The translations under genes and the position numbers were made by a program. Below the pieces are notes generated by a model. The model did no database searches. It saw only the letters and a list, made by a program, of their open reading frames with translations, and was not told the origin of the DNA. From contig CALULT010000033.1 in assembly GCA_944321565.1 (NCBI GenBank), positions 1 through 35,523 of the forward strand: 35,523 nucleotides of DNA. Reading direction: 5' to 3'. Below, piece after piece: positions 3,801 to 18,159 of the stretch (its first letter is position 1; each line of letters opens with the position of its first letter). Origin of the DNA: an uncultured Paraprevotella sp. (lineage in GTDB: Bacteria; Bacteroidota; Bacteroidia; Bacteroidales; Bacteroidaceae).

Positions 3801-4081
3801 CAGAGCGAAATGAAAAAGAGCTGATAAATGCCTTGGCCAAAGTAAAGGTCTTGATGAAAAATCAGTTGTTGTCTAAAGATTATTTGTCGGATTTGGCTCA
3901 GGTGCTTAAAGCCGATGCATTGTCGGGCTATGAGATAAGATATATCAATCAATTGGCTCCCAAAGATGCCGGAAAATTGCCGTTGAAAATCTCCGCTGAA
4001 TACTTGGCACGTATGATTAATAGCCAAAACAAGGTGGATGAAGGTGAAGAGACATTGATTTTAAGTGAAGAATTACAATAA
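833..4081 (+). CDS. PLD-domain / DEAH helicase fusion, restriction-like
   Basis: Predicted DNA-translocating nuclease of a restriction-like defence system, 1,082 aa from the ATG at 833 (an upstream TTG at 788 is in frame but overlaps the previous gene). Residues 1-190 form a phospholipase D-like nuclease domain with one HxK motif (H132, K134) followed by GSSNLS near 157. Then comes a superfamily 2 helicase core: Walker A DVVGLGKS (282), DEAH (356-359), TATPFNN (385), and in the second lobe ATDAISEGYNLH and QRIGRINRI (about 803). The C-terminal 200 residues are not recognised. Only one HxK half-site is present, so an active PLD nuclease would need a dimer. The gene lies 12 bases before the methyltransferase gene, so the two are almost certainly co-transcribed. 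Domain calls are secure; the defence role is inferred. Confidence 0.88.
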   Translation: MSSSFITNKEKFLSDIINGILPKTNAVDILVGYFYFSGYVQLSENLKDKQIRILVGLDVDLQISGHICEVEAIRKRLISRGAIKEEYYEQLVKLINESDFLDTAEKQEQFKMFYGKVLDGTLEIRKTLEPCHSKMYLFAYNDLVNEGGELPGVLITGSSNLSYQGLKGRLELNARFNDKQDYDEGKRLFDELWETSVVIVNKDILDDWNNKVMARIWYDKIYSPYLMYIRVLKEYFNIPTSNNILTPYDITEGKYSNLRYQTDAVQMALNALNNHNGAIIADVVGLGKSVIASTIARNLRLRTIIVCPPHLYKQWESYRDEFGFTATVFSAGKIEDAVLYYQELVKEGEQFLIIIDEAHRFRNEYTQDYALLHNLCSGNKVLLLTATPFNNQPADIYAMIKLFQIPSCSTLKTVENLGASFKDLMSRYKTLRDKQKEEKITDDEIKAEVDDIAKKIRSIISPLVIRRSRLDLQDIPEYANDLKLQNIQLVLPDDPEELEYDLSELKELYLSTLDRISKSGGGSDSVYHFKAARYSPVLYIREELKDKLAKELEEKTGVKFNLLLGRQANISSFMRHLLVARFESSVAAFQASLGYMIQSSEHLLRWIEKRHKIPVFKKGNLPDVEAFYESDGDGTEEFEELFEKYEERGFFEIDIKYVKDDFVTDVEADIQLLKNLRVRWFGKDNAVKSDPKLDSFIDIVRKQMKNEPDRKLIVFSEFADTVNYLGEALAKAGLPVMKYTSADATSANKDRIRANFDAGLKPILQRNDYHILVATDAISEGYNLHRAGAIFNYDIPYNPTRVIQRIGRINRINKKVFDKLYIYNYFPTDVGEAETRTKEISTLKMAMIHAIMGEDTKALTKEEDLQAYFKERYRKEFARSEEASWDTPYRKLLNSLKGTDVYVKALELPHRARTARNVEKPRKGVLMFGRKGDDFVFKMGDTLNNPVMISVEEAISLFDADKNEQPADFTPDFDGVYQKVKASLFSSDVTERNEKELINALAKVKVLMKNQLLSKDYLSDLAQVLKADALSGYEIRYINQLAPKDAGKLPLKISAEYLARMINSQNKVDEGEETLILSEELQ

Positions 4082-4093
4082 AAAAGACTCAAA

Positions 4094-7000
4094 ATGGAAT
4101 TCAATAAAACATATAATCGACAGGAGTTTATCAACTTCCTACAAAACAGTTTTTTGCCTGAAGATTTCATACCGGTTACAACTTCCGTGGAGTTTAGAAC
4201 CAAAATGAAATATACTACTCAAGCTGTAAAATTAGGTTCATCAGATTCTCTGGATCTAGTGGTCTACGAAGTAAAGCACACTTCAAAAAATGATGCCCGT
4301 GTTTCGCTTTCAAAAGAAGCGTTCCGTATGTTGGCCGACGAAATGGAAGACAGGGCTTTGGTCGTTTTTGTACCTGAAGACAATAGCGAGAACTATCGCT
4401 TTTCCCTTATTGAAATTACGCTTGAAGCGAAAGATAACTCGGCTCGTATCACACGGAATTATAGCAACCCACGCCGATATAGTTATTTCCTCGGGAAAGG
4501 CATTGCCTATTACACACCCAATAAGTACCTGAATGAAAAAGGCCGTGTTGTCAATGCGGAGGATTTGCGTAGCCGTTTCTCCATCGAGGTGCTTACAAAG
4601 GAATTCTATCAGGAGTTGAGTGACTGGTACGCTTGGGCTATTAAAATCATACGTTTTCCAAACGATCTTAACGACAAGACGGATGATGATAAGTTCAATA
4701 ATGAGAGTGCCATCCGCTTGATTACCCGTTTGATATTTGTCTGGTTCTTGAAGCAACGTCACCTTGTGCCCGATGAGTTTTTTGACGAACAATATATTGC
4801 GGCTAATCTGATAGAAGGCTTTAATCCCCATGCCATGGCCGATTTGTTCAGCAAATCCAATGAAAGCAAATACTACAAAGCCATCTTGCAGAATCTCTTC
4901 TTTGCCATGCTTAATAGTCCCATTACGCCGGAAGGAAGTAACGAACTTTCAGAGAGGCATTTCAGAAAAGGCCGTGGGGATTATGACAATAACAAGCTGA
5001 TGCGCTATGAGAATTATTTTATGAACCCGCAGTTGTTCGTTGATTTGGCGAACAAGACTGTTCCGTTCTTGAACGGAGGGCTATTCGATTGTTTAGACGA
5101 GAAGGACAAGGACTTGTATTATGACGGCTTTAGCGACCGCGAAGCTGTAAAAAAAGCGTTGATAGTTCCCGATTATCTTTTCTTTGGCGAGGAGGTCGGG
5201 AAAAACATAGACTTGTCGGAATGGTATGGAGACAAGAAAAAGAAGAAAGTTTCAGCCCGAGGAATAATTGATATACTGAAACGTTATAACTTTACCGTAG
5301 AGGAGAATACGCCGTTCGATCAGGAAGTATCGCTCGACCCGGAATTGTTGGGTAAAGTGTTTGAGAATTTGCTTGCATCCTATAATCCAGAGACGCAGAC
5401 CACAGCCAGAAAACAGACCGGTTCGTTCTATACGCCGCGGGAGATTGTGCAATATATGGTTGATGAAAGTCTGGTTGCTCACCTCAAACGCACTGTGGGC
5501 GATGATTTTGAAGCGCAATACCGTCAATTGATGCAATATACAGACGAGGCTGTTGACCTTACCGAAAATCAGAGGAAACAAATCATGCTGTCGCTCTATA
5601 ACTGCAAAGTTTTTGACCCAGCTTGTGGTTCAGGTGCTTTTCCAATGGGTATGCTGCAACAGATGGTGCATATTCTCAGCCGTATTGACCCCGATAATAC
5701 GCAATGGAAGGAGATGATGCTCAATAAGGCTATTGATGAAACATCGGATGCCTATCGTACGGCATCTTCTGATGAACGCCGGGAAATCATCGCCGACATT
5801 GAACGAAGTTTTGATGAAAGCGTCAATCGTCCGGACTATGCTCGTAAACTTTACTTGATAGAAAATTGCATTTACGGTGTCGATATACAGCCTATTGCTA
5901 TCCAAATCAGTAAGCTCCGCTTTTTTATATCTTTGGTGGTTGATCAGAAATCCAATGATAATCCCGTAGAAAACTTTGGTATTCGTCCGCTTCCGAACCT
6001 TGAAGCAAAATTTGTGGCAGCCAACACGTTGATTGGCTTAAATAAGAAAGATGCATCTTTGTTTGATCGTGCGGAGATAAAGGCGAAAGAAAATGAATTA
6101 AAGATTGCAAAGCACAAAATATTTGGGGCAAAGACCGTACGCACCAAGCGTAAATATCGTCAGATTGTAAATGATTTACGTCTTGAAATAGCCAAAATGT
6201 TGGAAGACTGTGGCGCTGTAGGTAATGCAGAAGCTCAACAATTGGCATCATGGGATATGTTTGACCAAAATGCGTCTTCGCCTTTTTTCGACCCCGAATG
6301 GATGTTCAACGTAAAAGAGGGATTCGATATTGTTATTGGGAATCCGCCGTATATAAGTGCTATAGATTTGAAAAAATCGCTCGGTAATACGAATTACAAA
6401 TATTTAAAAAGTCTTTTTCAAACTTCAAAAGGTGCGGTAGATATTTATGTTTATTTCTTTGAAAAGGGTTTAGGCTTATTGTGTAATGGTGGTACATTAT
6501 CTTTTATAACTCCGAACAAATATCTTTCAGCAAATTACGGAAAAACATTACGTGCTTACTTGATGACTAATGCAAAAATCACAACCGTATTAGACGTTTC
6601 AAGGGATAGCGTTTTTGATGCTGATACATATCCAGTTGTTAGTATTATTCGTAAATCTTCTGATGCTAAAGCTTATGAGTTTACTGCCATTGACAAATAT
6701 AAAATTGAACATAAATTCAATTCTTCTCAACTGTTTGAATTACCAGAATACAATTGGGGATTTATACTTAGCACCAAGTATGAATTAACTAAAAAAGTCC
6801 TTCTTAAAAGTAAATCAATTTTAGATGTTTGTAAAATCAATGCAACATCTACTGCTTCTGAAGCAGACGAATTTCACAATTCATTATATAGTGATGAAAA
6901 AATGGGACTCAAACTTATCAACACAGGAACGATAGATCCGTATTGTAACTTTTGGGGAGTTCGCAATTTGACAGACAAAGGTGAACTGTATTTATACCCA

Positions 7001-7504
7001 ATGCTACCCAATAATGCAAAAATATTAGGGATAAATCGGTATAATCTTTATAATAGTCCCAAAATTGTAATTGCAAAAATGTCACTTCGTCTTGAAGGCT
7101 TTTTTGACGAGAAAGGTGAATATGCATCAATCAATACCAACTGTCTGCATAGCATAAAAGTTAGTCCTTTAAAGTTAATGGGATGGATACATAGTAAATT
7201 ATTTAATTATATATATGAGTGCTATTTCGAGGGATTGAGAATGTCAGGTAATTATTTGCCATTTACAGCACCTTATCTCTCATGTATGTGTGTACCAGTG
7301 AATATAAATTTTTTGGAAATAGATAATTTAGTCATGTCTATACTCTCTGCTAAACGTTTAGCATTAGATACAGACATAACTGCATTAGAACAACAAATTG
7401 ACTTGTTAATTTATCATCTTTATGATCTTACCTATGATGAAGTGTTAATAGTAGATCCTCAAACATCAATAACACGTGAAGAATATGAAGCAGTGGATGA
7501 TTAA
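4094..7504 (+). CDS. Eco57I-type N6-adenine DNA methyltransferase with N-terminal nuclease-like domain
   Basis: 1,136-aa modification subunit, possibly combining modification and restriction. The N-terminus has a PD-(D/E)xK-like pattern, LDLVVYEVKH (D54, E59, K61). The methyltransferase core has motif I DPACGSGAF (from residue 508) and the catalytic NPPY (750-753), both typical of amino-methyltransferases of the type IIG/ISP/PglX kind. Residues after about 760 should be the target recognition domain. GC content falls abruptly there: hand counts give 28/60 for bases 5461-5520, 18/60 for 6421-6480 and 14/60 for 7021-7080. That suggests exchange of the specificity half. There is no separate HsdS-like specificity subunit. 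The partner is the upstream PLD-helicase. The last bases overlap the following membrane-protein gene. A PglX- or DISARM-like methylase is the closest alternative, but the companion genes of those systems are absent. Confidence 0.88.
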   Translation: MEFNKTYNRQEFINFLQNSFLPEDFIPVTTSVEFRTKMKYTTQAVKLGSSDSLDLVVYEVKHTSKNDARVSLSKEAFRMLADEMEDRALVVFVPEDNSENYRFSLIEITLEAKDNSARITRNYSNPRRYSYFLGKGIAYYTPNKYLNEKGRVVNAEDLRSRFSIEVLTKEFYQELSDWYAWAIKIIRFPNDLNDKTDDDKFNNESAIRLITRLIFVWFLKQRHLVPDEFFDEQYIAANLIEGFNPHAMADLFSKSNESKYYKAILQNLFFAMLNSPITPEGSNELSERHFRKGRGDYDNNKLMRYENYFMNPQLFVDLANKTVPFLNGGLFDCLDEKDKDLYYDGFSDREAVKKALIVPDYLFFGEEVGKNIDLSEWYGDKKKKKVSARGIIDILKRYNFTVEENTPFDQEVSLDPELLGKVFENLLASYNPETQTTARKQTGSFYTPREIVQYMVDESLVAHLKRTVGDDFEAQYRQLMQYTDEAVDLTENQRKQIMLSLYNCKVFDPACGSGAFPMGMLQQMVHILSRIDPDNTQWKEMMLNKAIDETSDAYRTASSDERREIIADIERSFDESVNRPDYARKLYLIENCIYGVDIQPIAIQISKLRFFISLVVDQKSNDNPVENFGIRPLPNLEAKFVAANTLIGLNKKDASLFDRAEIKAKENELKIAKHKIFGAKTVRTKRKYRQIVNDLRLEIAKMLEDCGAVGNAEAQQLASWDMFDQNASSPFFDPEWMFNVKEGFDIVIGNPPYISAIDLKKSLGNTNYKYLKSLFQTSKGAVDIYVYFFEKGLGLLCNGGTLSFITPNKYLSANYGKTLRAYLMTNAKITTVLDVSRDSVFDADTYPVVSIIRKSSDAKAYEFTAIDKYKIEHKFNSSQLFELPEYNWGFILSTKYELTKKVLLKSKSILDVCKINATSTASEADEFHNSLYSDEKMGLKLINTGTIDPYCNFWGVRNLTDKGELYLYPMLPNNAKILGINRYNLYNSPKIVIAKMSLRLEGFFDEKGEYASINTNCLHSIKVSPLKLMGWIHSKLFNYIYECYFEGLRMSGNYLPFTAPYLSCMCVPVNINFLEIDNLVMSILSAKRLALDTDITALEQQIDLLIYHLYDLTYDEVLIVDPQTSITREEYEAVDD

Positions 7505-8228
7505 TTTAGTATTGTTATTATTGTCTTTAGTAGCATTATTATTCTCATTATTAAAGGTAACACCATTTGAAATTACAAGTGAAACTTATATTGGAACAAT
7601 TGTTACTTTATTAAGTTTTGCTGCTGCTCTTGTTATTGGATATCAAATATATAATGCTATTGAACTTAGAAAAGAGATAGAAAATCAAAGGAAAAAGTAT
7701 GACGAAATTGTAAAGCGTAATGAGGAAATAGAAGGTAAACTCAAGTGTCATGAATATGCAATGCAGGAAGGATTTGATATTATTTCTTCTCTTATAGCCT
7801 ATAATAGTAGGCAATCTGAACTCGTCTGTGGAATAGCATTTCAAGATATGCACCGAGCATTGTTATCTTCAATAGAAACCGAAAGAACGGACTATGACTG
7901 GATTTTTGGTTGGATGAGAATGTTTATAAGTGAGATGAATAGTCTAACGTTTACTTCAGGATATGCTAAGCTAGCGGATGGAAGCTATCGCATTAATGTA
8001 CCAGGAGATAATAATTATGATAAAACAATACAGGAGGTAATAGATGAGTTTACTAAACCTATAAAAGAAGACGAAACACTAATTCGTTCAAATAAAAATT
8101 TCTGTAAAATTCAATTGGAGTATAATCGGGTAATGAAACTATTCTATAAAAGGTTGTCTAATATAGCGCAAGATCCTATGAAGCAGTTAACAGCCGAAGA
8201 AATAGCTCACATTGTTAATCCAATGTAA
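7485..8228 (+). CDS. membrane-anchored coiled-coil protein of unknown function
   Basis: About 247 aa from the ATG at 7485; a GTG at 7476 and an ATG at 7497 are also in frame. All three starts overlap the end of the methyltransferase gene. Two hydrophobic segments open the protein (LVLLLLSLVALLFSLL and IGTIVTLLSFAAALVIGY), followed by a charged probable coiled coil (ELRKEIENQRKKYDEIVKRN) and about 170 mainly helical soluble residues. I recognise no family. Base composition is very low in GC (11/60 in bases 7501-7560), like the end of the methyltransferase and unlike the next gene. It is therefore likely to have arrived with that segment. A role as a membrane effector or accessory of the restriction system is conceivable but not shown. 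Confidence 0.72.
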   Translation: MKQWMINLVLLLLSLVALLFSLLKVTPFEITSETYIGTIVTLLSFAAALVIGYQIYNAIELRKEIENQRKKYDEIVKRNEEIEGKLKCHEYAMQEGFDIISSLIAYNSRQSELVCGIAFQDMHRALLSSIETERTDYDWIFGWMRMFISEMNSLTFTSGYAKLADGSYRINVPGDNNYDKTIQEVIDEFTKPIKEDETLIRSNKNFCKIQLEYNRVMKLFYKRLSNIAQDPMKQLTAEEIAHIVNPM

Positions 8229-8336
8229 TGGGTAAGCACAATTATGGAAAACTTTAAAAGTGTGAGATGAAATAAATGTGCCAATTAAATTTGAAAATGG
8301 AGCTTGTTGTAATATAATTTTTTATCTAATTGAAAT

Positions 8337-8993
8337 ATGTCCAGATTAAGCAAACTATACGAAGCTATGGAAACTCTTCGCAAAGAAGGACTACCAGTAG
8401 ATGAAAACCTTGAGAAAAAGGCTAATGAATTGGAAGAAGACATCATCAAGAAAGAAATTCTTCCGGTGTTGAGTAAGACCATTGAGCCTGCGTTGCAACC
8501 GGTAAAGCGAGAATTGGTGTTGGTGGTAGATTATGTGCCCGGACAACCATTGAGCGTTCATTTGAGCCGTAAGCGTAACTTTACCGCAGAACTTACAGAT
8601 GCCAAGGAAATGGTACTTGATCCGGAGGTAACTCATCGGAATCGCCTTTCAAGTTCAGAGGGAAAGATAGAGAGAGGTCCGGCAAGAGACATGTCTGTGA
8701 TATTCCCGGACGGAACTGTCATTGCGGAAAAGACTGCTGTGGAAACGCTGGTCGCGGTCGTACAGAAAATCGGGGTGGCACAAGTGCGCCAAGTAGTAGA
8801 GGAGTATAACCTGAAGTTCTGCAAAGTTCCGGTGATTTCAAATCGAAGGGATGCAAAATATGGCAAGAGCCAGCGGGATTTGGGTGGAGGATGGCTGTTG
8901 ATTACCCATAGCAACAATCTCATGAAAAAGGCTTTTATTGAAAAGGTCTCGGAGATTTTGCATCTTGGGCTTAAAGTCATATTAAAGGAATAA
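8337..8993 (+). CDS. uncharacterised accessory protein downstream of the restriction-like genes
   Basis: 218 aa, no signal peptide or membrane segment. The N-terminal 55 residues are charged and helical, perhaps a coiled coil (LRKEGLPVDENLEKKANELE). The middle is a beta-rich region (ELVLVVDYVPGQPLSVHLSR). The C-terminal 90 residues (from TAVETLVAVVQKIG to the end) form a compact alpha/beta segment with a GGGWLLITHS motif. That segment resembles an accessory domain I associate with restriction loci, but I cannot name it. GC content is back to the level of the methyltransferase core (28/60 for 8821-8880), so this gene probably belongs to the ancestral locus and not to the AT-rich insert before it. 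Confidence 0.7.
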   Translation: MSRLSKLYEAMETLRKEGLPVDENLEKKANELEEDIIKKEILPVLSKTIEPALQPVKRELVLVVDYVPGQPLSVHLSRKRNFTAELTDAKEMVLDPEVTHRNRLSSSEGKIERGPARDMSVIFPDGTVIAEKTAVETLVAVVQKIGVAQVRQVVEEYNLKFCKVPVISNRRDAKYGKSQRDLGGGWLLITHSNNLMKKAFIEKVSEILHLGLKVILKE

Positions 8994-9012
8994 TATTTGT
9001 GGAGTAAGAATT

Positions 9013-9186
9013 AGAGCCTGTTTAAATTTTCCAATAAGGTGATATGTCAGGTCTCTTTTGAGTTTGTTTCCGGCCTGTTTCCCCGATTTTATGCGTCAGA
9101 TAGCCCGCTATCCTCCTTATAAAATCAGAAAAACATTCTCAGAAACAATTCTCAAAATAGACCCGAGCAAAATTTAAACAGGCTCT
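9013..9186. mobile_element. MITE-like fold-back element 1
   Basis: A 174-bp non-coding element with perfect 18-bp terminal inverted repeats, agagcctgtttaaatttt at 9013-9030 and its complement at 9169-9186. The interior also folds back: ccgattttat pairs with ataaaatcag around a centre containing cgtcagatagcccgctatc (9094-9112). That 19-bp centre recurs exactly in the element at 11,896-12,090. No transposase is encoded, so it would be non-autonomous, or a structured transcription-related repeat. Confidence 0.75.
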
Positions 9187-9227
9187 TAAAAAAAGTCGTA
9201 TCTTTAACTTTCAACACCCATTCGATT

Positions 9228-9863
9228 ATGACTCAATTAATAAAAACAGATAAGGACTATGCTTCTTGGATTGAGGAGCTTAGTCTGCGGTATAAGAAAA
9301 GCCAGATTAAGGCGGCTACGCATGTCAACAGTGAGATGCTGCGATTCTACTGGTCGTTGGGAAAGGACATTGTTACACTTCATGCAGAAAGCCGATGGGG
9401 TGACAAGTTCATTGCCAGTTTGAGTGCAGACCTAAGGCTTAAACTCCCCGGAGTGAAGGGATTGTCGGAAACCTGCATAGTATATGCAAAACGGTTTTAT
9501 TTGCTTTATAATAAGTATTTTACAATTCACCCACAACTTGTGGGTGAATTACAAAATAATGCAATTTGGCGCATTCCTTGGGGACATCATAGATACATTA
9601 TCGACAAATTCTTCAACGAACCGGAAAAAGCGATGTTTTATGTACAGAAGACATTGGAGAACGGTTGGAGCAGGAATGTGTTGCTGAACTTTATGGATAC
9701 CAATTTGTATGAGCGGCAAGGAAAAGCGGTCAGCAACTTTAAAGCAGCTTTGCCTGCACCGCAGAGCGACCTTGCCCAAGAAATGACCAAGAACCCATAT
9801 CCGGCAGATTTCAGAAGTTCATTGCCCGGCATAGAAGACATAGAAAATGAATATGTTTTGTGA
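9228..9863 (+). CDS. truncated DUF1016 (YhcG-like) protein, N-terminal domain only
   Basis: 211 aa. Residues 10-170 match the DUF1016 N-terminal domain, with landmarks such as NSEMLRFYWSLGKDI, WGDKFIASLSADLR, WGHHRYIIDK and the transition KAALPAPQSDLAQEMTKNPY. In full-length members (about 340-380 aa) this is followed by a PD-(D/E)xK nuclease domain. Here the protein ends about 25 residues later with an unrelated-looking tail, so the nuclease is missing. DUF1016 genes are frequent passengers in type I restriction loci. A near-consensus promoter element TATCTTTA (9199-9206) lies between fold-back element 1 and the ATG. It may survive as a DNA- or protein-binding stub, or be decaying. Confidence 0.8.
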   Translation: MTQLIKTDKDYASWIEELSLRYKKSQIKAATHVNSEMLRFYWSLGKDIVTLHAESRWGDKFIASLSADLRLKLPGVKGLSETCIVYAKRFYLLYNKYFTIHPQLVGELQNNAIWRIPWGHHRYIIDKFFNEPEKAMFYVQKTLENGWSRNVLLNFMDTNLYERQGKAVSNFKAALPAPQSDLAQEMTKNPYPADFRSSLPGIEDIENEYVL

Positions 9864-9912
9864 ACACACAAACAATGCAACAACATAGATTCTTTGTTTT
9901 CATCTATTTTTG

Positions 9913-9920
9913 TACCTTTG
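9913..9920 (+). promoter_or_regulatory. -7 promoter element upstream of the AAA/DUF4276 genes
   Basis: TACCTTTG is an exact TAnnTTTG match, with TTTG at 9893-9896 as a possible, rather close, -33 element. It precedes a broken small gene and then the ATPase gene at 10,144. Confidence 0.55.
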
Positions 9921-9958
9921 CATCAGGCAGATATTAATTAATAGAAGGAGGTAAAGAA

Positions 9959-10137
9959 ATCAATAAGATAAAATTGTCCTCTTGTCAAAAAGGAAAAGAC
10001 AAATGGTGGGTGGCTGAAATCCGACTTGGCTCCAGAGATACGTTTTCGCAAATCGGAACTAGAAAAAGGATGCAAAGATGCTGGCACAAAAGATGGAGCG
10101 GACGGAATTGTTTGCGATTAAATGGAAATTAAAATAA
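9959..10137 (+). pseudogene. small gene with lost start codon and a frameshift
   Basis: A good ribosome-binding sequence, aaggaggt (9946-9952), is followed seven bases later by ATC AAT AAG where ATG AAT AAG would be expected. The frame then reads NKIKLSSCQKGKDKWWVAEI and continues to TFSQIGTRK. After an A-run near 10,061-10,067 the sensible frame shifts to DAKMLAQKMERTELFAIKWK and stops at 10,135-10,137, six bases before the ATPase gene. Together these describe a small protein of about 58 residues broken twice. I do not recognise its family. The position suggests it was the first gene of the ATPase operon. Confidence 0.4.
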
Positions 10138-10143
10138 AGCAAT

Positions 10144-11238
10144 ATGATAGAGCAAGTTATAATTAAAAACTATAAGTCAATAAAAGACTTGGTGTTGCCT
10201 TTAAACAAGTTGAATGTGTTGATTGGTTCAAATGGGGCGGGTAAAAGCAATTTTGTCTCTTTCTTTGAACTGACAAAAGCTATCTATGAACAACGTTTTG
10301 GCAGTTATACATTGGCCAAGGGGGGAATAGACAATTTATTGTATAGAGGGAGAAAGGCTTCTCCTTCCATGCTGGGCTTGCTTGACTTTGACAATACAAA
10401 TGCTTTTTTCTATGAGATAAAGCCTGCACAATCCAATAAAGGATATATTGAGAAAACCGGAGATTATTTCAATAATCATCATCTTGGGGGGAAAAATTAC
10501 GATCAGTGGAATAAGACATTATGGGACAATGCAGTAGAAGAATCCTCGTTGATTCAGAGACCACAATGGCGAGCCGCATATCTGAAAAAGTACCTAAACA
10601 GTTTTACGGTATATCATTTTCACGATACAAGTGCGAGTTCTCCTATGCGTGGGGATTGTAATATAAACGACAATGCTTACTTGCGCGATAACGGGGCAAA
10701 CTTGGCGGCTTATCTCTATGCGTTGATGCAAAATGACGAAAAGACTTTCCACTTGATAGAGGGCGTAATAAGGTCCATCGCTCCTTATTTCAAAGGCTTC
10801 AAGTTACGTCCGGATGCGAATAACAAAGAAAACATCCGGTTGGAATGGGAAGAAAAAGACACCGATATGTATCTTAACGGATACAGTTTCTCAGACGGTA
10901 CATTGCGTTTTATTGCATTGGCCACTTTGCTTTTGCAATCTAATCCTCCGGAAATAATCATAATAGATGAGCCGGAGTTGGGGCTGCATCCGGCAGCCAT
11001 CAACAAATTGGCGGAACTTGCCAAAAGGGCCTCGCATAAAAGCCAGATTATTCTATCCACTCAATCTACTAATCTGCTGAACTGTTTTGATGTAGGGGAT
11101 ATCATTGTGGTGGACAGGGCGGATAATCAATCTGTCTTCCGGCACTTATCCGGCGAAGAGTTAGGAAAATGGATGGATGATTATAATTTGTCCATCAGTG
11201 ACCTGTGGGAGAAGAACATGATAGGAGGGCAATTATGA
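10144..11238 (+). CDS. AAA ATPase (AAA_15/AAA_21, OLD/RecF-like)
   Basis: 364-aa ABC-type/SMC-like ATPase of the kind found in OLD, Septu and PARIS-type phage-defence systems. Walker A is GSNGAGKSNF (from about residue 28) directly after the typical N-terminus KNYKSIKDLVLPL. The signature-like YSFSDGTLRFIALATLL precedes Walker B IIIIDEPELGLHP, followed by a histidine-type switch region (STQSTNLLNCF). There is no coiled coil long enough for true SMC. The stop codon overlaps the next ATG (ATGA at 11,235-11,238), so translation is coupled to a DUF4276 partner. Probable function: ATP-dependent sensing by the ATPase and control of the TOPRIM-like partner; that role is inferred from related two-gene defence systems. 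Confidence 0.88.
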   Translation: MIEQVIIKNYKSIKDLVLPLNKLNVLIGSNGAGKSNFVSFFELTKAIYEQRFGSYTLAKGGIDNLLYRGRKASPSMLGLLDFDNTNAFFYEIKPAQSNKGYIEKTGDYFNNHHLGGKNYDQWNKTLWDNAVEESSLIQRPQWRAAYLKKYLNSFTVYHFHDTSASSPMRGDCNINDNAYLRDNGANLAAYLYALMQNDEKTFHLIEGVIRSIAPYFKGFKLRPDANNKENIRLEWEEKDTDMYLNGYSFSDGTLRFIALATLLLQSNPPEIIIIDEPELGLHPAAINKLAELAKRASHKSQIILSTQSTNLLNCFDVGDIIVVDRADNQSVFRHLSGEELGKWMDDYNLSISDLWEKNMIGGQL

Positions 11239-11891
11239 AACGGGTATATATAGTGGTAGAAGGGCAGACGGAACAAGAGTTTGTCAACAGTATGATAGCT
11301 CCCTATTTTCAGGACTTAGGCATATATAGCGTAACTCCTATATTGATTCGGACAAGCAGGAGCGGAAGGGGAGGTATGGTTAATTACCGGCACTTGTATA
11401 ATACAGTCCAAATGTTGCTGCAATCTTCTCAAACTGATTTTATCGTAACGACTTTCATTGATTTCTTCAGAATTCCCCATACAATGCCTAAATACGAAGA
11501 ATGTATGGCAAAGCCTGATGATGGGCAGCGCATTAAAGCATTGGAGGAAGCTATGAATGAGGATATATCGGACTGCCGTTTTTTCTCTTACATCCAATTG
11601 CACGAATTTGAAGCACTTTTGTTCTCGGACAATAAAGGATTTGAATCTTACTTCGACGGGAAAGAAGCAGAACGAACATCTGCTATTATTGCGACATACG
11701 AGAATCCGGAAAACATAAACTCATCTTCCGAAGGAGCACCCTCCAAACGCCTTTTACGCATAAAGCCTGACTATAATAAGGCTTTGGAAGGCAATTTGAT
11801 CGCTTTGGAAATAGGTATCAATGCAATTTTGGAGAAGTGTCCTCGGTTTGCAGAATGGATAAACAATATAGTGAAGAATTGTAAAGAGTGA
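11235..11891 (+). CDS. DUF4276 protein, TOPRIM-like partner of the AAA ATPase
   Basis: 218 aa from ATG 11,235, which has the ribosome-binding sequence aggaggg 5 bases upstream; an in-frame GTG at 11,205 is less likely. The N-terminus YIVVEGQTEQEFV carries the conserved glutamate of a TOPRIM-like fold. FIDFFRIP (about residue 78) and IQLHEFEALLFSD (about 118) are the other DUF4276 landmarks. The family regularly pairs with AAA ATPases and is thought to supply a nuclease or effector activity. The ATGA overlap with the ATPase gene supports a complex made in fixed ratio. The pair resembles PARIS (AriA/AriB) in design, but AriB belongs to DUF4435, so it should not be called PARIS. Confidence 0.85.
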   Translation: MKRVYIVVEGQTEQEFVNSMIAPYFQDLGIYSVTPILIRTSRSGRGGMVNYRHLYNTVQMLLQSSQTDFIVTTFIDFFRIPHTMPKYEECMAKPDDGQRIKALEEAMNEDISDCRFFSYIQLHEFEALLFSDNKGFESYFDGKEAERTSAIIATYENPENINSSSEGAPSKRLLRIKPDYNKALEGNLIALEIGINAILEKCPRFAEWINNIVKNCKE

Positions 11892-12295: not shown

Positions 12296-13156
12296 ATGAG
12301 ACAGTTAAAGATTACCAAAAGCATCACCAACCGCGAGAGTGCGTCGCTAGACAAATACTTGCAGGAGATAGGCCGCGAAGACCTGATTTCCGTGGAAGAA
12401 GAGGTCGAGCTGGCGCAGCGCATCCGGAAAGGTGACCGTGTAGCACTTGAAAAACTGACCCGTGCCAATTTGCGCTTCGTGGTTTCTGTGGCCAAGCAGT
12501 ACCAAAACCAAGGATTAAGCCTTCCGGACTTGATTAACGAGGGAAACTTGGGACTGATAAAGGCGGCCGAGAAGTTCGACGAGACGCGCGGGTTCAAGTT
12601 CATCAGCTATGCGGTGTGGTGGATTCGTCAGTCCATTCTGCAAGCCTTGGCAGAACAGAGCCGCATCGTGCGTTTGCCCTTGAACCAGGTAGGTTCGCTG
12701 AACAAAATCAGCAAGGCGTTTAGCAAATTCGAGCAGGAAAACGAACGGCGGCCGAGTCCGGAAGAACTTGCCGATGAGTTGGAGATTCCTGTAGATAAGA
12801 TTTCCGACACTTTGAAAGTAAGTGGGCGCCATATTTCCGTGGACGCGCCTTTCGTGGAAGGCGAGGACAACAGCCTGTTGGACGTGTTGGTGAACGACGA
12901 TTCGCCGATGGCCGACCGTACGCTGGTAAACGAGTCTTTGTCGCGGGAGATAGACCGCGCGCTCTCCACGCTTTCCGAACGCGAGAAGGAAATCATCCAG
13001 ATGTTTTTCGGCATCAACCACCAGGAAATGACGCTGGAAGAAATTGGAGACAAATTTAACCTTACGCGGGAACGGGTGCGCCAGATAAAGGAAAAGGCCA
13101 TTCGCCGTTTGCGTCAGAACGCCAAGAGCAAGCTGCTGAAATCTTATTTGGGTTAA
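12296..13156 (+). CDS. rpoD: primary sigma factor RpoD/SigA
   Basis: 286-aa vegetative sigma-70 factor, the short form typical of Bacteroidota that lacks the long 1.1/non-conserved region of E. coli RpoD. Region 1.2 starts [20 protein letters not shown]; region 2 carries LVPEAN-equivalent [20 protein letters not shown], the -10 recognition segment [17 protein letters not shown] and then RIVRLP. Region 3 is [18 protein letters not shown]. Region 4.2 is the helix-turn-helix [20 protein letters not shown] ending in [17 protein letters not shown]. The ATG at 12,296 follows the -7 element and gives the usual family N-terminus [15 protein letters not shown]. It would read the TAnnTTTG promoters listed in this window. 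Confidence 0.97.
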
Positions 13157-13271: not shown

Positions 13272-13751
13272 ATGAATATGATGTTGAAGCGTTGGGGCGC
13301 AGTGGCTTTTGCTTTTTTGTGCATGAGCGTGTCCTTGTGTGCCAAGGTGGAGCGCACGACGGTGTACATGTTTGGTTTCTCGGCCTCTTTCACCGATTCC
13401 GTGGCTTATATCACGGATGTGCAGCGAGTGGATAGTGCTTATATCGACACGAAGACCGATTTCTTGTTGGACCGTGTGGTGTATAGCGACCAATTGCAAG
13501 TGTTCATGGAAAGTTTGAATGTCATGAAGGATTGCACTTGTGCCGTGCTTTTCAGTACAAAAAAGAGCAAGTTGGAGGAAGAATACAAGCGGCTCCGTAA
13601 GCGTTACCAGGAAGATGGCGGCATCGTGTTGAAAGATTTGGCTGCCGGACAGTTTAAGTTCCAAGCACCTTCTTATATTCCTGCAGGAGCCGAGGAGGAG
13701 GCACCGGAGGAAACGGAACAGAAAAGCGATAATCCTGGAAAGGAGGAGTGA
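13272..13751 (+). CDS. exported protein of unknown function, first gene of the HprK/S26/PqqD operon
   Basis: 159 aa with a clear signal peptide (LKRWGAVAFAFLCMSVSLCA, cleavage likely before KVE). The mature part begins with beta-strand-like sequence (TTVYMFGFSASFTDSVAYIT), has a pair of cysteines only in MKDCTCAVLF, a short basic helix (EEEYKRLRKRYQEDGG) and ends in a very acidic, probably disordered tail (EEEAPEETEQKSDNPGKEE). I do not recognise the family. The TGA stop shares a base with the ATG of the kinase-like gene (TGATG). It lacks the size and architecture of a peptide precursor. Confidence 0.8.
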   Translation: MNMMLKRWGAVAFAFLCMSVSLCAKVERTTVYMFGFSASFTDSVAYITDVQRVDSAYIDTKTDFLLDRVVYSDQLQVFMESLNVMKDCTCAVLFSTKKSKLEEEYKRLRKRYQEDGGIVLKDLAAGQFKFQAPSYIPAGAEEEAPEETEQKSDNPGKEE

Positions 13752-14629
13752 TGGAAACACACAGATTCAGGATTGGCGGCCATTTGTGTGAGATTGCGTT
13801 CTGCAATGAAGGCGACGGAGCGGATTTGATTCCATCGTTCGCGCCGTTTGCTGTGGAAGACGGTGGAGATTTGCTGTTCCGCCTTGCCGTGGATAAGGAT
13901 TTCCGTTGGGATTTGCGGGGCGACGAAGTAGGTCAGTTCGATTGCGGAGGTAACAATTTTGGCGTTTACCGCATGGCGGATGGCAGTTATCAGTTTGAAA
14001 TATGCAATGAGAGGAAAACTTTGTGTGCCCTGATGGAGGCTAATCCTGACTTTTCCAACTGCATGGTCGTCTTGACCGGCGAAGACAAGCCGGCACGTGA
14101 CTTCGGGCTGAACAACGCCCTGATGCTGGCATACGCTTTTGCTTCGGCTCCGCACTCCACCCTGCTGATGCATGCCTCGGTGGTGCGCAACGACGGGACA
14201 GGCTATCTGTTTTTGGGCAAGAGCGGTACGGGAAAAAGCACACACACGCGTTTGTGGCTGCAATATATTCCCGGTTCGGATTTGATGAACGACGACAATC
14301 CCGTGGTGAGGGTTGAGAACGGAAAGGCGTATGTCTATGGCTCTCCTTGGAGCGGGAAAACGCCTTGTTACCGTAATGTGGTGGCTCCAGTGGGCGGTTT
14401 TGTGCAACTTCAGCAATGTCCGGAAAACGCCATTCGTCGTGAGAATGTGTTGGGAAGCTTTGCTTCGTTGCTTCCTTCCATTTCTACAATGAAGTGGGAC
14501 AAACGGATTTACACGGCTCATTGCGACACGATTTCGGAGCTTATCCGCACCACGCCGCTTTATCATTTGGGGTGCCTGCCCGACGAAGCGGCCGCACGTT
14601 TGAGTTATCACACATTGACAGGAAAATAG
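13751..14629 (+). CDS. HPr-kinase-like protein (HprK-related)
   Basis: 292 aa. A P-loop, FLGKSGTGKSTHTRLW, at residues 154-169 follows the HprK-type lead-in LLMHASVVRNDGTGYL, and DLMNDDNPVVR near residue 183 matches the second HprK motif. The N-terminal 120 residues replace the usual HprK N-terminal domain and are specific to this subgroup. No HPr or carbon-control gene is nearby. The genes beside it are a protease and a PqqD-like protein, as in HPr-rel-A type clusters and in lasso-peptide clusters where HprK homologues phosphorylate the peptide. The substrate here is unknown. The start at ATG 13,751 overlaps the previous stop by one base. Confidence 0.82.
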   Translation: METHRFRIGGHLCEIAFCNEGDGADLIPSFAPFAVEDGGDLLFRLAVDKDFRWDLRGDEVGQFDCGGNNFGVYRMADGSYQFEICNERKTLCALMEANPDFSNCMVVLTGEDKPARDFGLNNALMLAYAFASAPHSTLLMHASVVRNDGTGYLFLGKSGTGKSTHTRLWLQYIPGSDLMNDDNPVVRVENGKAYVYGSPWSGKTPCYRNVVAPVGGFVQLQQCPENAIRRENVLGSFASLLPSISTMKWDKRIYTAHCDTISELIRTTPLYHLGCLPDEAAARLSYHTLTGK

Positions 14630-14641
14630 GAGGATTGCGCG

Positions 14642-15133
14642 ATGGCTGGTATGGATGATTTTGGCGGAGAGATGCGCAGGATGGAAGTGCCTAACGCCAT
14701 TTTGCTGGGACACGTGAAAGAGGCTTTGCAGGTTGGCCACACGGCTACCATCAATGTGAAGGGCTACAGCATGCGTCCTTTTTTGGAGAATAGTAAAGAC
14801 AAGGTGAGGTTGGCGCCTCCGGGCGTGTTGCGGGTAGGAGATGCCGTGTTGGCCGAGATTGCCCGCGACGTGTATGTGCTCCACCGCATTATCATTATCG
14901 ACGGCGATAGCGTCACGTTGATGGGCGATGGCAACCTGTGTGGGACGGAACAGTGCCGGAAAGACGACGTGGTGGGGGTGGTCACGCATTATTACCATCG
15001 TGGACGGATGATAGCGGCTTCCGATCCGCGTTTTCGCCGCCGGGTGAGGTTATGGGGGAAATTGCTCCCGTGGCGACGCTACCTTTTATATATATATAAG
15101 ATAAGACTGAAACTTTCAAACATACTGGGATGA
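14642..15133 (+). CDS. S24/S26-family serine protease, signal-peptidase-like
   Basis: 163 aa. The nucleophile motif is GYSMRPF (Ser43), and YVLHRI (His81) takes the place of the lysine base. That Ser-His arrangement is the one seen in the SipW/eukaryotic (S26B) signal peptidases rather than the Ser-Lys pair of LepB. DGDSVTLMGDGN is the following conserved segment. There is no N-terminal membrane anchor; a short hydrophobic/basic stretch (WRRYLLYIYKIRLK) near the C-terminus could bind the membrane. An AGGAGG ribosome-binding site lies 9 bases before the ATG. The stop overlaps the next ATG by 4 bases (ATGA). It probably cleaves a peptide or leader handled with the PqqD-like protein; this role is inferred from context. 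Confidence 0.82.
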   Translation: MAGMDDFGGEMRRMEVPNAILLGHVKEALQVGHTATINVKGYSMRPFLENSKDKVRLAPPGVLRVGDAVLAEIARDVYVLHRIIIIDGDSVTLMGDGNLCGTEQCRKDDVVGVVTHYYHRGRMIAASDPRFRRRVRLWGKLLPWRRYLLYIYKIRLKLSNILG

Positions 15134-15396
15134 GAATCAAAGACGGATTTGAGTTGCGGGAAATATGCGGCGAGAATGTGATTTTGTCGCATGGCATGGA
15201 AAATATTGATTTCAGCAAGATTATTTCGCTGAACGAAACGGCGGCCTTCTTGTGGAAGGAAGCCGTGGGGAAGGATTTCGACGAACAAAGCCTGTCGGAT
15301 GCCTTGTTGGACGCTTACGATGTGGATGCCGAAACGGCCCGCAAGGACGTGGAGCGCATTCTTTCCGCATGGCGCGAGATTGGCCTGTTGGCATGA
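15130..15396 (+). CDS. PqqD-family peptide-recognition (RRE) protein
   Basis: 88 aa, the normal length for PqqD. The pattern FELREICGENVILSHG, then FSKIISLNETAAFLWKEAVG and LLDAYDVDAETARKDVERIL, is the three-stranded sheet plus winged-helix fold that binds leader peptides in PQQ, lasso, sactipeptide and related pathways. It overlaps the protease gene by 4 bases and the YjbR gene follows 10 bases later. No radical SAM, asparagine synthetase-like or other cyclase gene is present in the window, so the modified peptide and the enzyme it serves must be elsewhere, or the protein works with the kinase-like protein and protease alone. Confidence 0.85.
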   Translation: MRIKDGFELREICGENVILSHGMENIDFSKIISLNETAAFLWKEAVGKDFDEQSLSDALLDAYDVDAETARKDVERILSAWREIGLLA

Positions 15397-15406
15397 TGTC
15401 GGGCGG

Positions 15407-15766
15407 ATGAACGTAGAAGAAATCAGGGCATATTGCCTTTCGAAGCCTGGCGCCACGGAAGATTTCCCGTTTGATGAAACAACGTTGGTGTTCCGGGTGG
15501 AGCACAAGATTTTCGCTTGCATCGGTTTGGACAATGTCGATTGGTTTTGCCTGAAATGCGACCCGGATTATGCCATTGAGCTGCGCGAGCGTTATGCGGG
15601 CATTACCGGTGCATGGCATTGGAACAAACGGCATTGGAACCAGATTGCCATTACCCACGGCGATGTGCCCGATTCGTTGATATGCCACCTGATAGACCAT
15701 TCCTACGATGAGGTGGTGAAGAAGCTTCCCCGCAAGTTGCGCGAACAGCTTGCAGGAAGACTTTGA
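15407..15766 (+). CDS. MmcQ/YjbR family protein
   Basis: 119 aa, full length for the family. Landmarks are the N-terminal KPGATEDFPFD, FRVEHKIFACIGLDN, the ITGAWHWNKRHWNQIAI core and the C-terminal ICHLIDHSYDEVVKKLP. The fold is a double-wing DNA-binding-like domain, but its biochemical role is not established. ATG 15,407 is chosen because upstream in-frame codons overlap pqqD and add no family sequence. It is last in the operon and may be a passenger. It converges with the cytosine methyltransferase gene, 55 bases between stops. Confidence 0.9.
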   Translation: MNVEEIRAYCLSKPGATEDFPFDETTLVFRVEHKIFACIGLDNVDWFCLKCDPDYAIELRERYAGITGAWHWNKRHWNQIAITHGDVPDSLICHLIDHSYDEVVKKLPRKLREQLAGRL

Positions 15767-15821: not shown

Positions 15822-17033
15822 CTATTGATAAACAGAACGGATAATGGCGCATGCCATCTCGTAGGCCATGACGGGAGGCACGGCATTTCCCACTTGGGTG
15901 AACCGTCTTGACATGGGGCCGGTGAACCGGTAGGTGTCTGGGAAGGTTTGAATCCGTGCACATTCCCGCACGGTCAGCGTACGTGGGATGAAGGGGTGCA
16001 AGTGCGACCTGCCTCCGCCGCCGGTTCCTCCTGCGATGACTGTTTTGGAAGGCAACAATGGGTCAAGCCTGTCCACACGCCCTAGTTTGTCCCGTTGTCC
16101 GAAGTTGAGTTTCATGTAGCGGTCTATGGATGCGGCTTTGTGGTTTCGTGGTGAATGGCTGTCTCCGTCCAAGATGGGAGCTACGAGCGCACTGCCCATC
16201 GAGATGTGATGCTCCACTGGGGCGGGGAAGTCTATGTGTCCGATGCGGCTGCCCATAATGATGGTTCTCATCCGCTTTTGTGGGACACCGAAGTCAGCTG
16301 CGTCCACGATGTGTGGCGGGGTGACGTCATAGCCTGCATGTTCCAGAATCTGACACGCACGGCGGGCTTGGATGCCGCCGTCGATGTTCAGCAGTCCGTC
16401 CACGTTTTCTATCAAGAACGCTTCGGGCATGAAATGGGTGATGGCGGCGATGTAGCAAAACAGCAAGTTGCCGTATTGTTCATGGTCGAAACCTGTGCGT
16501 TTGAAGTTCTCGCCGTTTTTGGAAAAGCGTTGGTTCGCAGCGATGCTGAAAGACTGGCATGGAGGACCGCCATGGAATACGCCTGGAAAGTTCCGTGGGA
16601 TGCCCTCTGCTTCCAGCCGTGCGATGATTTCTTCCGGATGGTTCATGTCGCCGTGATCCGCAGGAGGCCCGATGACCAAGTGTGCCCCGTTCTCGCGCAA
16701 CGTCTCGCAAAAGATGGGATTGATTTCCACATCGGCAAGGTTTTCAAACCCGGCTTGTCCGAAGCCAAGGTCTAATCCGCCGGCTCCGGAGAAAAAACTT
16801 ACGCAGGGAATCCCTTCCGCTAATGCAGGGCGTTCAGTCAAGGGGATGAACGGCGGGCACGGGTAGCGTTCGGGAGAGGCTTCGTCGGAATAGACAAGCC
16901 AATCGTATGTCAACCCCCTTGCATGCAATTCTTCTTCCAGGTCAAGCCCTCTGTTGATGCAACGTTGGATAAGTTCGTATTGTTCTCTATAAGCCATTTC
17001 GTCAGTTGATAATTGTTCTTTTGGCCAGCTCAT
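15822..17033 (-). CDS. DNA cytosine-5 methyltransferase, type II
   Basis: 403-aa C5-cytosine methyltransferase that protects host DNA from the neighbouring HNH endonuclease. Motifs in order: I FSGAGGLDLGFGQAGF (residue about 80), IV with the catalytic cysteine GGPPCQSFSIAANQR, VI FLIENVDGLL, VIII VPQKRMRTIIMG, IX TLTVRECARIQTFPD and X QVGNAVPPVMAYEMA. The region between VIII and IX is the target recognition domain and gives no readable specificity. An 80-residue N-terminal extension before motif I is unusual and might carry a regulatory or interaction function. The ATG at 17,033 lies inside the end of the endonuclease gene (32-base overlap), so both are translated from one transcript. Confidence 0.95.
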   Translation of the reverse strand: MSWPKEQLSTDEMAYREQYELIQRCINRGLDLEEELHARGLTYDWLVYSDEASPERYPCPPFIPLTERPALAEGIPCVSFFSGAGGLDLGFGQAGFENLADVEINPIFCETLRENGAHLVIGPPADHGDMNHPEEIIARLEAEGIPRNFPGVFHGGPPCQSFSIAANQRFSKNGENFKRTGFDHEQYGNLLFCYIAAITHFMPEAFLIENVDGLLNIDGGIQARRACQILEHAGYDVTPPHIVDAADFGVPQKRMRTIIMGSRIGHIDFPAPVEHHISMGSALVAPILDGDSHSPRNHKAASIDRYMKLNFGQRDKLGRVDRLDPLLPSKTVIAGGTGGGGRSHLHPFIPRTLTVRECARIQTFPDTYRFTGPMSRRFTQVGNAVPPVMAYEMACAIIRSVYQ

Positions 17034-18159
17034 ATACGTCGGTGGCCATCTTTTTCGAAGAGAAGTCGGGCAAATCCCATTCGTTCAGCTTATTCTTATA
17101 GAAGATATGGATGCTGCGGTGGCAGGTGGGGCAAAGCGGGCGCAGGTCGTCCAATGTGGTTGTGGTGCCATTCACATTGAGGGTGGCCGAGAGCGGGAGG
17201 ATGTGGTGAAGTTCCAAAATGTTGTGGCTGTCCAGCCAAGGATATTTGTCACGGGGATGCAGGTGGCAGGCATCGCAGGCTGCATCTTGGTGAAGGCGGA
17301 AAAAACGTTCGCGGAGGAGCGGGCTGCGTTCAATTTTGCTGTGGGAGGCAAAGGCTCTTTTCCCTTCCCGCACGGCAAACTCCGAAACATTTCGTTCGGA
17401 AAGTTCGATTTCGAAATTTTCGAGCGAAGGATATGCTTTCAGGGAAGTCAACAGAAAGAATTCTTTGCCGGGGTCTGGATCCCGTGTGGGAGATGCGTAT
17501 GGTGTTGTGGCGCTTAATATGGCATCGAAGTTTTCTGTGTCCAAATAGAGGTGGCGGTCGAACCAACGGATATACGAAGCCTGGCCCATGAACACGAGCA
17601 TCTCCCTGACTTGCCTCTGCTCGTCTCCTAATGGCAGGCGTGGCGTGGGCATGAGGGACTTGTAATAGGAAATGCTTTCTGTGCCGGTGCAGTCATTGCC
17701 AATGACGAAACGGAACACGTCGTCTAATGTGACGGGGCGGCCTTGACGGGCTATCATGAATTTCAAGATGGCCACGAACGGGTAGGCGGGAGTGAGGCCG
17801 GCATCGTAGTCGTTAAAGGCAGGGTATGGCAACCTGAAATGGGAAAACACGAAGTTGAGGTACTCGTCCGGGGTGAAAGGTGCATTGCTTGTCAGTCTGC
17901 GGCATACGTCTGTGACAATCAGTTTCCCGTCTATTTCCGTGGCTAACATGGCGCATTGGAACACACGGGCGTAGTTTCGCCACACTTTGTAATGTGCCGG
18001 GGCGAAAGGTAATTCCGTATAGGTTTCCAACGGCCTGCGCAGGAGGTCTTCCCTTGTGCGTAACGAAATGCCGTCAATGCCACACAGGACATTTGCCATC
18101 CGGCAGATGTTTTCGAATTGAAAATAAGGCAACCTTCCTTGATCCCAACGCCAACGCAT
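17002..18159 (-). CDS. HNH restriction endonuclease, type II
   Basis: 385 aa. The C-terminal 100 residues form an HNH nuclease: ACDACHLHP (first cysteine pair), then LELHHILPLS with the catalytic histidine pair, LDDLRPLCPTCHRSIH (second cysteine pair and last H). The first 270 residues are not recognised and probably give sequence recognition. The gene precedes and overlaps the C5 methyltransferase. Unusually for type II systems without a controller gene, the endonuclease is upstream, so protection depends on translation timing or overlap coupling. The promoter element TAACTTTG on the minus strand (18,199-18,206) is about 40 bases upstream. No C-protein gene is present. Confidence 0.9.
   Translation of the reverse strand: MRWRWDQGRLPYFQFENICRMANVLCGIDGISLRTREDLLRRPLETYTELPFAPAHYKVWRNYARVFQCAMLATEIDGKLIVTDVCRRLTSNAPFTPDEYLNFVFSHFRLPYPAFNDYDAGLTPAYPFVAILKFMIARQGRPVTLDDVFRFVIGNDCTGTESISYYKSLMPTPRLPLGDEQRQVREMLVFMGQASYIRWFDRHLYLDTENFDAILSATTPYASPTRDPDPGKEFFLLTSLKAYPSLENFEIELSERNVSEFAVREGKRAFASHSKIERSPLLRERFFRLHQDAACDACHLHPRDKYPWLDSHNILELHHILPLSATLNVNGTTTTLDDLRPLCPTCHRSIHIFYKNKLNEWDLPDFSSKKMATDVYELAKRTIIN

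Follow-up and report, generated by a model that had tools for sequence, protein, structure and literature searches.

Which substrates are served by a kinase, a protease and a peptide-binding protein whose shared operon holds no recognisable precursor? The question is raised by a 35,523-nucleotide stretch of an uncultured Paraprevotella sp. genome (contig CALULT010000033.1; the whole stretch is called the window here), where genes for an HPr kinase (HprK)-like protein, an S26B signal-peptidase-like protease and a PqqD-like protein follow rpoD. A reading made from the letters alone (the sequence-only reading) had pointed out these genes and proposed a conserved peptide-handling kit acting on a distant, unrecognised substrate, possibly the exported protein encoded by the first open reading frame of the operon (ORF1). 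The answer that we consider quite probable is that the cassette at 13751-15396 constitutes the enzyme core of a Bacteroidota pathway resembling that of the linear polyphosphorylated peptides (LPPs), with precursors dispersed through the genome. The kind itself is already described in Bacillota (Popov et al., 2026, PMC13381572); if our assignment is true, it extends into gut Bacteroidales, and the precursors, dispersed as they are, would escape any genome mining confined to the surroundings of the enzymes.

In that report, clusters for LPPs, a family of ribosomally synthesized and post-translationally modified peptides (RiPPs), are defined by a signal peptidase I (SpI)-like protease, a RiPP recognition element (RRE), an HprK-like kinase, an NTP transferase and an MsbA-like exporter; each cluster encodes one to three precursors. 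In B. subtilis, phosphates that depend on the kinase were located on core Ser3, and processing failed when the protease was missing; cleavage by the protease in a translation assay required the RRE (PMC13381572). LPPs are said there to be restricted to Bacillota, most SpI matches were from Bacillota, words starting with "bacteroid" have 0 occurrences in the main text, and the roles of LPPs are unknown according to their authors. Among the open-access papers searched, none was seen to describe such a system for Bacteroidota, the supplement of PMC13381572, with its non-Bacillota SpI matches, lying outside that search.

By analogy with this precedent, on which binding, phosphorylation and cleavage are modelled, the PqqD-type RRE would bind the YxxP leader of 46-60-aa precursors whose genes lie away from the cassette, the HprK-like kinase would phosphorylate a conserved Ser 18-20 residues past the Tyr, and the S26-type protease, assisted by the RRE, would cut the leader off near that Ser. 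The Ser could instead immediately precede the cleavage site (AxS, as with signal peptidases), a reading that we rank below its alignment with the phospho-Ser of LPPs. More speculatively, an unlinked ATP-binding cassette (ABC) transporter could export the product, an unlinked nucleotidyltransferase (NTase) could perform nucleotidyl transfer, and the products might leave the cell and act at its surface; this last suggestion is made because most precursor genes of the window's own genome directly follow genes for large, exported-looking proteins with a tail like that of type IX secretion system (T9SS) cargo, the others lying near fimbrillin-like or capsule genes.

The enzymes and their linkage

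All five ORFs called by the sequence-only reading (ORF1, HprK-like, S26-like, PqqD and YjbR) were confirmed at their positions, with the three enzyme genes in one operon behind rpoD. The kinase matched the HprK_rel_A model under its curated cut-off (E = 6e-6). A structural model built from a 27-sequence alignment reached a predicted local distance difference test score (pLDDT) of 92.1, and its listed Foldseek matches were phosphoenolpyruvate carboxykinase (PEPCK) and HprK structures (E from 1e-6 to 1e-4, probability 1.00). TM-scores were low (0.25-0.53 by query length) and root-mean-square deviations high, so that the comparison speaks for the fold class but does not amount to a close match. 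All aligned sequences share the P-loop and an LMNDDNP stretch without change. A 97% kinase match lies on contig CALUFQ010000001.1, and the window's genome has one kinase match only. The nearest relative holds a second kinase, 34% identical (L111, 2942-3844; G103:C19), near genes resembling those for capsule or extracellular polysaccharide.

Matches of the protease were weak and under curated cut-offs (sigpep_I_arch, E = 0.001; S24, E = 0.006). Across 25 aligned sequences, SMRPF, HR and GDGN are invariant and there is no invariant Lys, in line with the Ser-His pair proposed before; neither signal peptide nor anchor was seen by eye on any of the three enzymes. In several relatives, the protease is extended at its N-terminus by about 30 residues, which could contact the membrane. 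The PqqD-like protein scored over the Pfam cut-off (E = 2.8e-16), as did YjbR (E = 3e-30). For PqqD, the single significant relative of solved structure was the lasso RRE TfuB1 (E = 3e-5), followed by TbiB1 (E = 0.066) and PbaB1 (E = 0.083). Pairs of HprK-like and PqqD-like proteins are also found in the HprK-rel-A and SynChlorMet systems of the NCBIfam models, which were matched weakly; scores were far under their cut-offs and, unlike those systems, the window cassette has no adjoining radical S-adenosylmethionine (SAM) gene among the genes called, relatives not having been searched systematically for one.

Linkage was assessed at 80 related loci; these were chosen by their kinase, so that the counts are partly conditional, and some end at contig ends. 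ORF1, kinase and protease occurred together at 80/80 loci, PqqD at 79/80, rpoD at 40/80 and YjbR at 8/80. The operon of this Paraprevotella is thus confirmed as real, with linkage beyond chance: far from being scattered, kinase, protease and PqqD stand together at 79 of these kinase-chosen loci. YjbR and rpoD are passengers. The position behind rpoD holds for the window but was not found for half of the related loci, and YjbR, which had been taken to complete the operon, is outside the conserved set. Gaps were measured at 38 of the 80 loci: those between protease and PqqD were at most 109 bases, and those between kinase and protease at most 53 except for 251 in L053. Gaps of this size could hardly accommodate a peptide of 50 aa, and a precursor inside the operon is disfavoured. 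In agreement with the sequence-only reading, neither a precursor nor a cyclase was recognised in the window operon. Neighbourhoods were called by codon usage, a procedure that misses YjbR; greedy longest-ORF calling was dropped for the many antisense ORFs it produced.

One clade carries a gene of the clostripain family (C11) between ORF1 and the kinase, at 15/80 loci by clustering (for example L042, L053, L058, L067, L075, L079 and L109), with a Pfam match at E = 8e-41 for one member. C11 shares a protease clan with the T9SS sortase PorU.

Candidate precursors encoded in trans

Further kinase loci, more distant but within the same GTDB family, were represented by 20 stretches, some holding second kinase copies and some the sole copy. 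They contain small ORFs that start with M and carry a Lys-rich segment, YxxP, acidic residues and a Ser. PqqD, an NTP_transf_5-type NTase, an ABC exporter or the protease occur there in varied combinations, often near genes for capsule export or for fimbrillin-like lipoproteins (by eye). A leader profile built on 11 of the small ORFs gave nine matches at E ≤ 10 in the window's own genome (best 0.001); from these nine a full-length profile was made, which had 13 matches at E ≤ 0.00104, its own nine rows included. The resulting 13 candidate precursors, 46-60 aa long and encoded in trans to the cassette, share the consensus M(E)KKxYxxPxVEVxxxExxxMMAxS, followed by a variable segment and, mostly, an ANRDNxWDLW-like end; judged by their sequences, they may be the distant substrates that had been postulated. 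A Ser at Tyr+18 to Tyr+20 is present in 13/13 of them and in 31/31 aligned rows from several genera, a conservation that is partly built in because the starting profiles and rows were Ser-bearing. For one ortholog pair, nonsynonymous and synonymous divergence (dN 0.060, dS 0.136) weakly favour a real coding gene. NCBIfam and Pfam gave nothing over cut-off for ten of the 13 peptides, nor for five and four peptides of distant loci; the best matches under cut-off were StsA sactipeptide RiPP (E = 0.032, one peptide) and Cytochrom_B562 (E = 0.014, another). Single genomes contain up to 21 (G134) and 20 (G260) profile matches.

Longer, Cys-bearing ORFs of 133-150 aa with a YxxP leader were seen near PqqD and kinase genes in L122 (8763-9215, 10018-10440 and 14060-14461) and L125 (7586-8032), the latter locus also containing a radical-SAM-like ORF at 8051-9163 (CxxxCxxC by eye). 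The window's own genome has two ORFs that look radical-SAM-like by eye, one behind a peptide gene on C36 (L192, 5134-6426) and one on C18 behind an unlinked NTP_transf_5 gene (L206, 7265-8335).

Kinase and peptide co-occur across genomes. In a family sample of 151 genomes (kinase at E ≤ 0.001, peptide profile at E ≤ 0.01), 122 had the kinase and 92 the peptide, with 89 holding both, 33 the kinase only, three the peptide only and 26 neither; the peptide was thus found in 89/122 kinase-positive vs 3/29 kinase-negative genomes (Fisher 5e-10, without correction for phylogeny). An order sample of 295 genomes, with a stricter kinase threshold (E ≤ 1e-10) and the same peptide threshold, contained 38 kinase-positive and 16 peptide-positive genomes, 13 with both across 10 families, that is, 13/38 vs 3/257 (1.5e-10, likewise uncorrected). 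Of the three order genomes with peptide but no kinase, G440 is 89% complete, and two other genomes of its genus contain both kinase and peptide. The reversed peptide profile matched 0/151 family genomes, a control that had no positive counterpart and only bounds chance matches.

Fuller kits occur elsewhere in the order. Neighbourhoods were read for 21 of the 38 kinase-positive order genomes, and the counts are lower bounds since contig ends cut some loci. Within six genes of the kinase there was a protease in at least 16, PqqD in at least 16, an NTase in at least 10 and an ABC exporter in at least 17 loci, the last by a test that would also match other ABC exporters. All five LPP enzyme types were clustered at 6/21 loci (L210, L212, L214, L216, L217 and L222). 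Comparison of neighbourhoods for conserved small ORFs, which had been suggested as a check, yielded YxxP small ORFs beside the kit at 6/21 (L212, L219, L222, L227, L229 and L230). By gene content, then, the five-gene clusters of the order are LPP-like, and the window cassette is, to judge from its genes, a reduced form with its precursors in trans. The window's own genome does have five matches to PF14907 (NTP_transf_5) away from the operon, a broad family also matched in 3/14 control genomes; two of them, at identical coordinates on C27 and C103 (G000), are a probable assembly duplicate and perhaps one gene. A kinase-protease-PqqD-ABC row was also seen in an unannotated record matched by tblastn, MT835698.1 (L232, "Bacteriophage sp."), which looks like bacterial chromosome, with a glmM-like gene by eye.

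Several features bring the cassette close to LPP clusters as defined in the accessible text of PMC13381572: an SpI-like (S26) leader protease with invariant Ser and His, its profile matches being weak and under cut-off; a discrete RRE of lasso B1 type; an HprK-like kinase, under cut-off in sequence models; no cyclase among the adjoining operon genes scanned, the genome not having been searched; several related loci near capsule genes; and, in other families of the order, the NTase and ABC exporter as well. The peptides have a YxxP leader with a Ser about 18 residues past the Tyr; in the published leader motif YxxPxVLxHQxIxFETxxS, the Ser stands at Tyr+18 by our count (PMC13381572). Unlike LPP systems, the host is Paraprevotella (Bacteroidota) and not a member of Bacillota, and the 13 precursor genes are spread over the genome, most of them forming pairs with T9SS-like-tail genes; the precursors end in a Trp-bearing C-terminus.

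Pairing with T9SS-like-tail genes

Of the 13 peptides in the window's own genome, 11 have their start in the interval from 4 bases before to 48 bases after the stop codon for a larger protein whose C-terminal tail resembles VYxLxGxxV...GLxKGIYIVDGKKxVK or MSDGTVKKVIVK. The two unpaired peptides are on C16, with capsule-kinase-like and fimbrillin-like genes (by eye), and at C36:31413. A profile of the eleven tails found 33 places in this genome, 11 of them with a peptide (the profile's own rows) and 22 with none detected. In G134, a genome with 21 peptide matches, it found 42 places; G009 and G037, where neither kinase nor peptide matched, had none. At 29 top loci from other genomes, the upstream gene matched the tail profile in 15 cases (E ≤ 1), and several more have Lys-rich ends alike by eye. 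The T9SS translocon protein SprA was present in 5/5 peptide-positive genomes tested (four over cut-off; that of G134 is broken at a contig end) and in 0/3 peptide-negative ones. The partners thus share with T9SS type A cargo (TIGR04183) a similar short tail and the presence of SprA; unlike such cargo, they score under the TIGR04183 cut-off or are unlisted, and proteins over that cut-off have no detected peptide.

The gene pairing suggests that the peptides have a role with surface proteins, and one may speculate that they contact or are joined to their partners. A bolder version, which we regard as doubtful, ties this to the T9SS: in Prevotella-like gut bacteria, many genes for surface proteins would each be followed immediately by a dedicated RiPP precursor gene, a single kit would phosphorylate and trim all the peptides, and each would partner or join its cognate cargo at the surface, forming a second, peptide-based layer of cargo modification. 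No small peptide coupled to T9SS cargo came up in the open-access papers searched. In P. clara, according to the accessible text of PMC9477747, a T9SS with PorU is functional, deletion methods are published and trypsin degradation is a measurable T9SS phenotype; the idea is directly testable because of these methods and this phenotype, and the pairing offers a practical starting point for learning the function of the peptides.

Competing explanations and surroundings of the operon

A number of results weigh against the LPP-like assignment or the pairing. In a profile match with LppB itself (9x8z), PqqD reached only E = 0.37. The window operon has neither an NTase nor an MsbA-like exporter, and HQ and FET of the LPP leader motif are missing from the peptides; because the two genes are absent from the cluster and the leader motif is shared only in part, the cassette is not filed as an LPP member. 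The Ser conservation is in part a product of how the profiles were made, and the Fisher statistics ignore phylogeny. No peptide was detected at E ≤ 0.01 in 33/122 family and 25/38 order kinase-positive genomes, where low profile sensitivity or other substrates may be responsible, and three genomes of each sample have the peptide without the kinase. The assignment of the partner tails to the T9SS is weak: TIGR04183 matches 3/11 partners (C95, C62 and C50; E about 0.001-0.002, all under cut-off) and, at E ≤ 0.1, none of the other 8. It has 20 places in the window's own genome at E ≤ 0.1, 11 of them over cut-off, with a detected peptide at 0 of these 11; matches also occurred in 6/14 control genomes.

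In one competing explanation, the YxxP ORFs would encode small proteins of surface-protein loci with no relation to the cassette, which would act on another, unseen substrate. The kinase-positive genomes without a detected peptide fit it, as do the 2/13 peptides without a tail partner, and tails, kit and peptides could co-occur through ancestry or habitat. It is nevertheless improbable given the co-occurrence in both family and order samples, the zero matches of the reversed profile and the YxxP ORFs adjoining kits at the six order loci named above.

We give even less weight to the proposal that the cassette processes ORF1. It draws on the linkage of ORF1 at all 80 close loci, including the 40 where rpoD was not found. 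However, the N-terminus of ORF1 looks Sec-like by eye and a YxxP leader is absent, while the three enzymes have no visible export signal, and its profile was found within six genes of the kinase at 0/21 loci of other families of the order. ORF1 is accordingly disfavoured as the substrate, contrary to the earlier suggestion; its fold had no PDB match at E ≤ 0.001.

The chance that the cassette belongs to a lasso-peptide pathway with its cyclase elsewhere in the genome is slight. Paeninodin-like lasso clusters, as described in the accessible text of PMC13381572, contain HprK, RRE, NTase and exporter with a [Y/W]xxP leader, so that this accessory set is common to both kinds. Unlike those clusters, neither a macrolactam synthetase (asparagine-synthetase-like) nor a B2-like cysteine protease was recognised among the operon genes scanned or by eye in the neighbourhoods inspected, no genome-wide search having been made, and S26 occupies the place of B2. 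That these are housekeeping genes with no pathway in common, sharing transcription with rpoD, which adjoins the operon in the window, is scarcely credible, as kinase, protease and PqqD remain together at the 40/80 loci where rpoD was not found (contig ends cut some) and the gene set recurs in other families.

With the LPP-like assignment preferred, the features of the window are collected below. ORF1 and kinase genes overlap by one base, and protease and PqqD genes by four.

Features of the operon and its flanks, in window coordinates
Feature	Position	Strand	Remarks
PLD-helicase	833-4081		defence-like flank
DUF1016	9228		defence-like flank
AAA_21 ATPase and DUF4276	10144-11891		defence-like flank
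rpoD, primary sigma factor	12296..13156	+	neighbour, outside the kit; in 40/80 related loci
ORF1, 159-aa exported-looking protein of unknown fold	13272..13751	+	linked, probably not substrate; AlphaFold pLDDT 83
HprK/PEPCK-like kinase (LppK-like)	13751..14629	+	P-loop SGTGKSTHTRLW
S26B signal-peptidase-like serine protease (LppS-like), without obvious membrane anchor	14642..15133, start maybe 14651	+	Ser in GYSMRPF, His in LHR
PqqD-type RRE (lasso B1/LppB-like)	15130..15396	+	expected YxxP-leader binder; Pfam match
YjbR family protein	15407..15766	+	passenger; 8/80 loci
C-5 cytosine methylase and HNH protein	15822-18159		defence-like flank

Defence-like genes lie on both sides of rpoD and the operon (833-11891 and 15822-18159). 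A 441-aa ORF on the - strand (13673-14998) runs antisense over ORF1, kinase and protease and is likely a shadow ORF.

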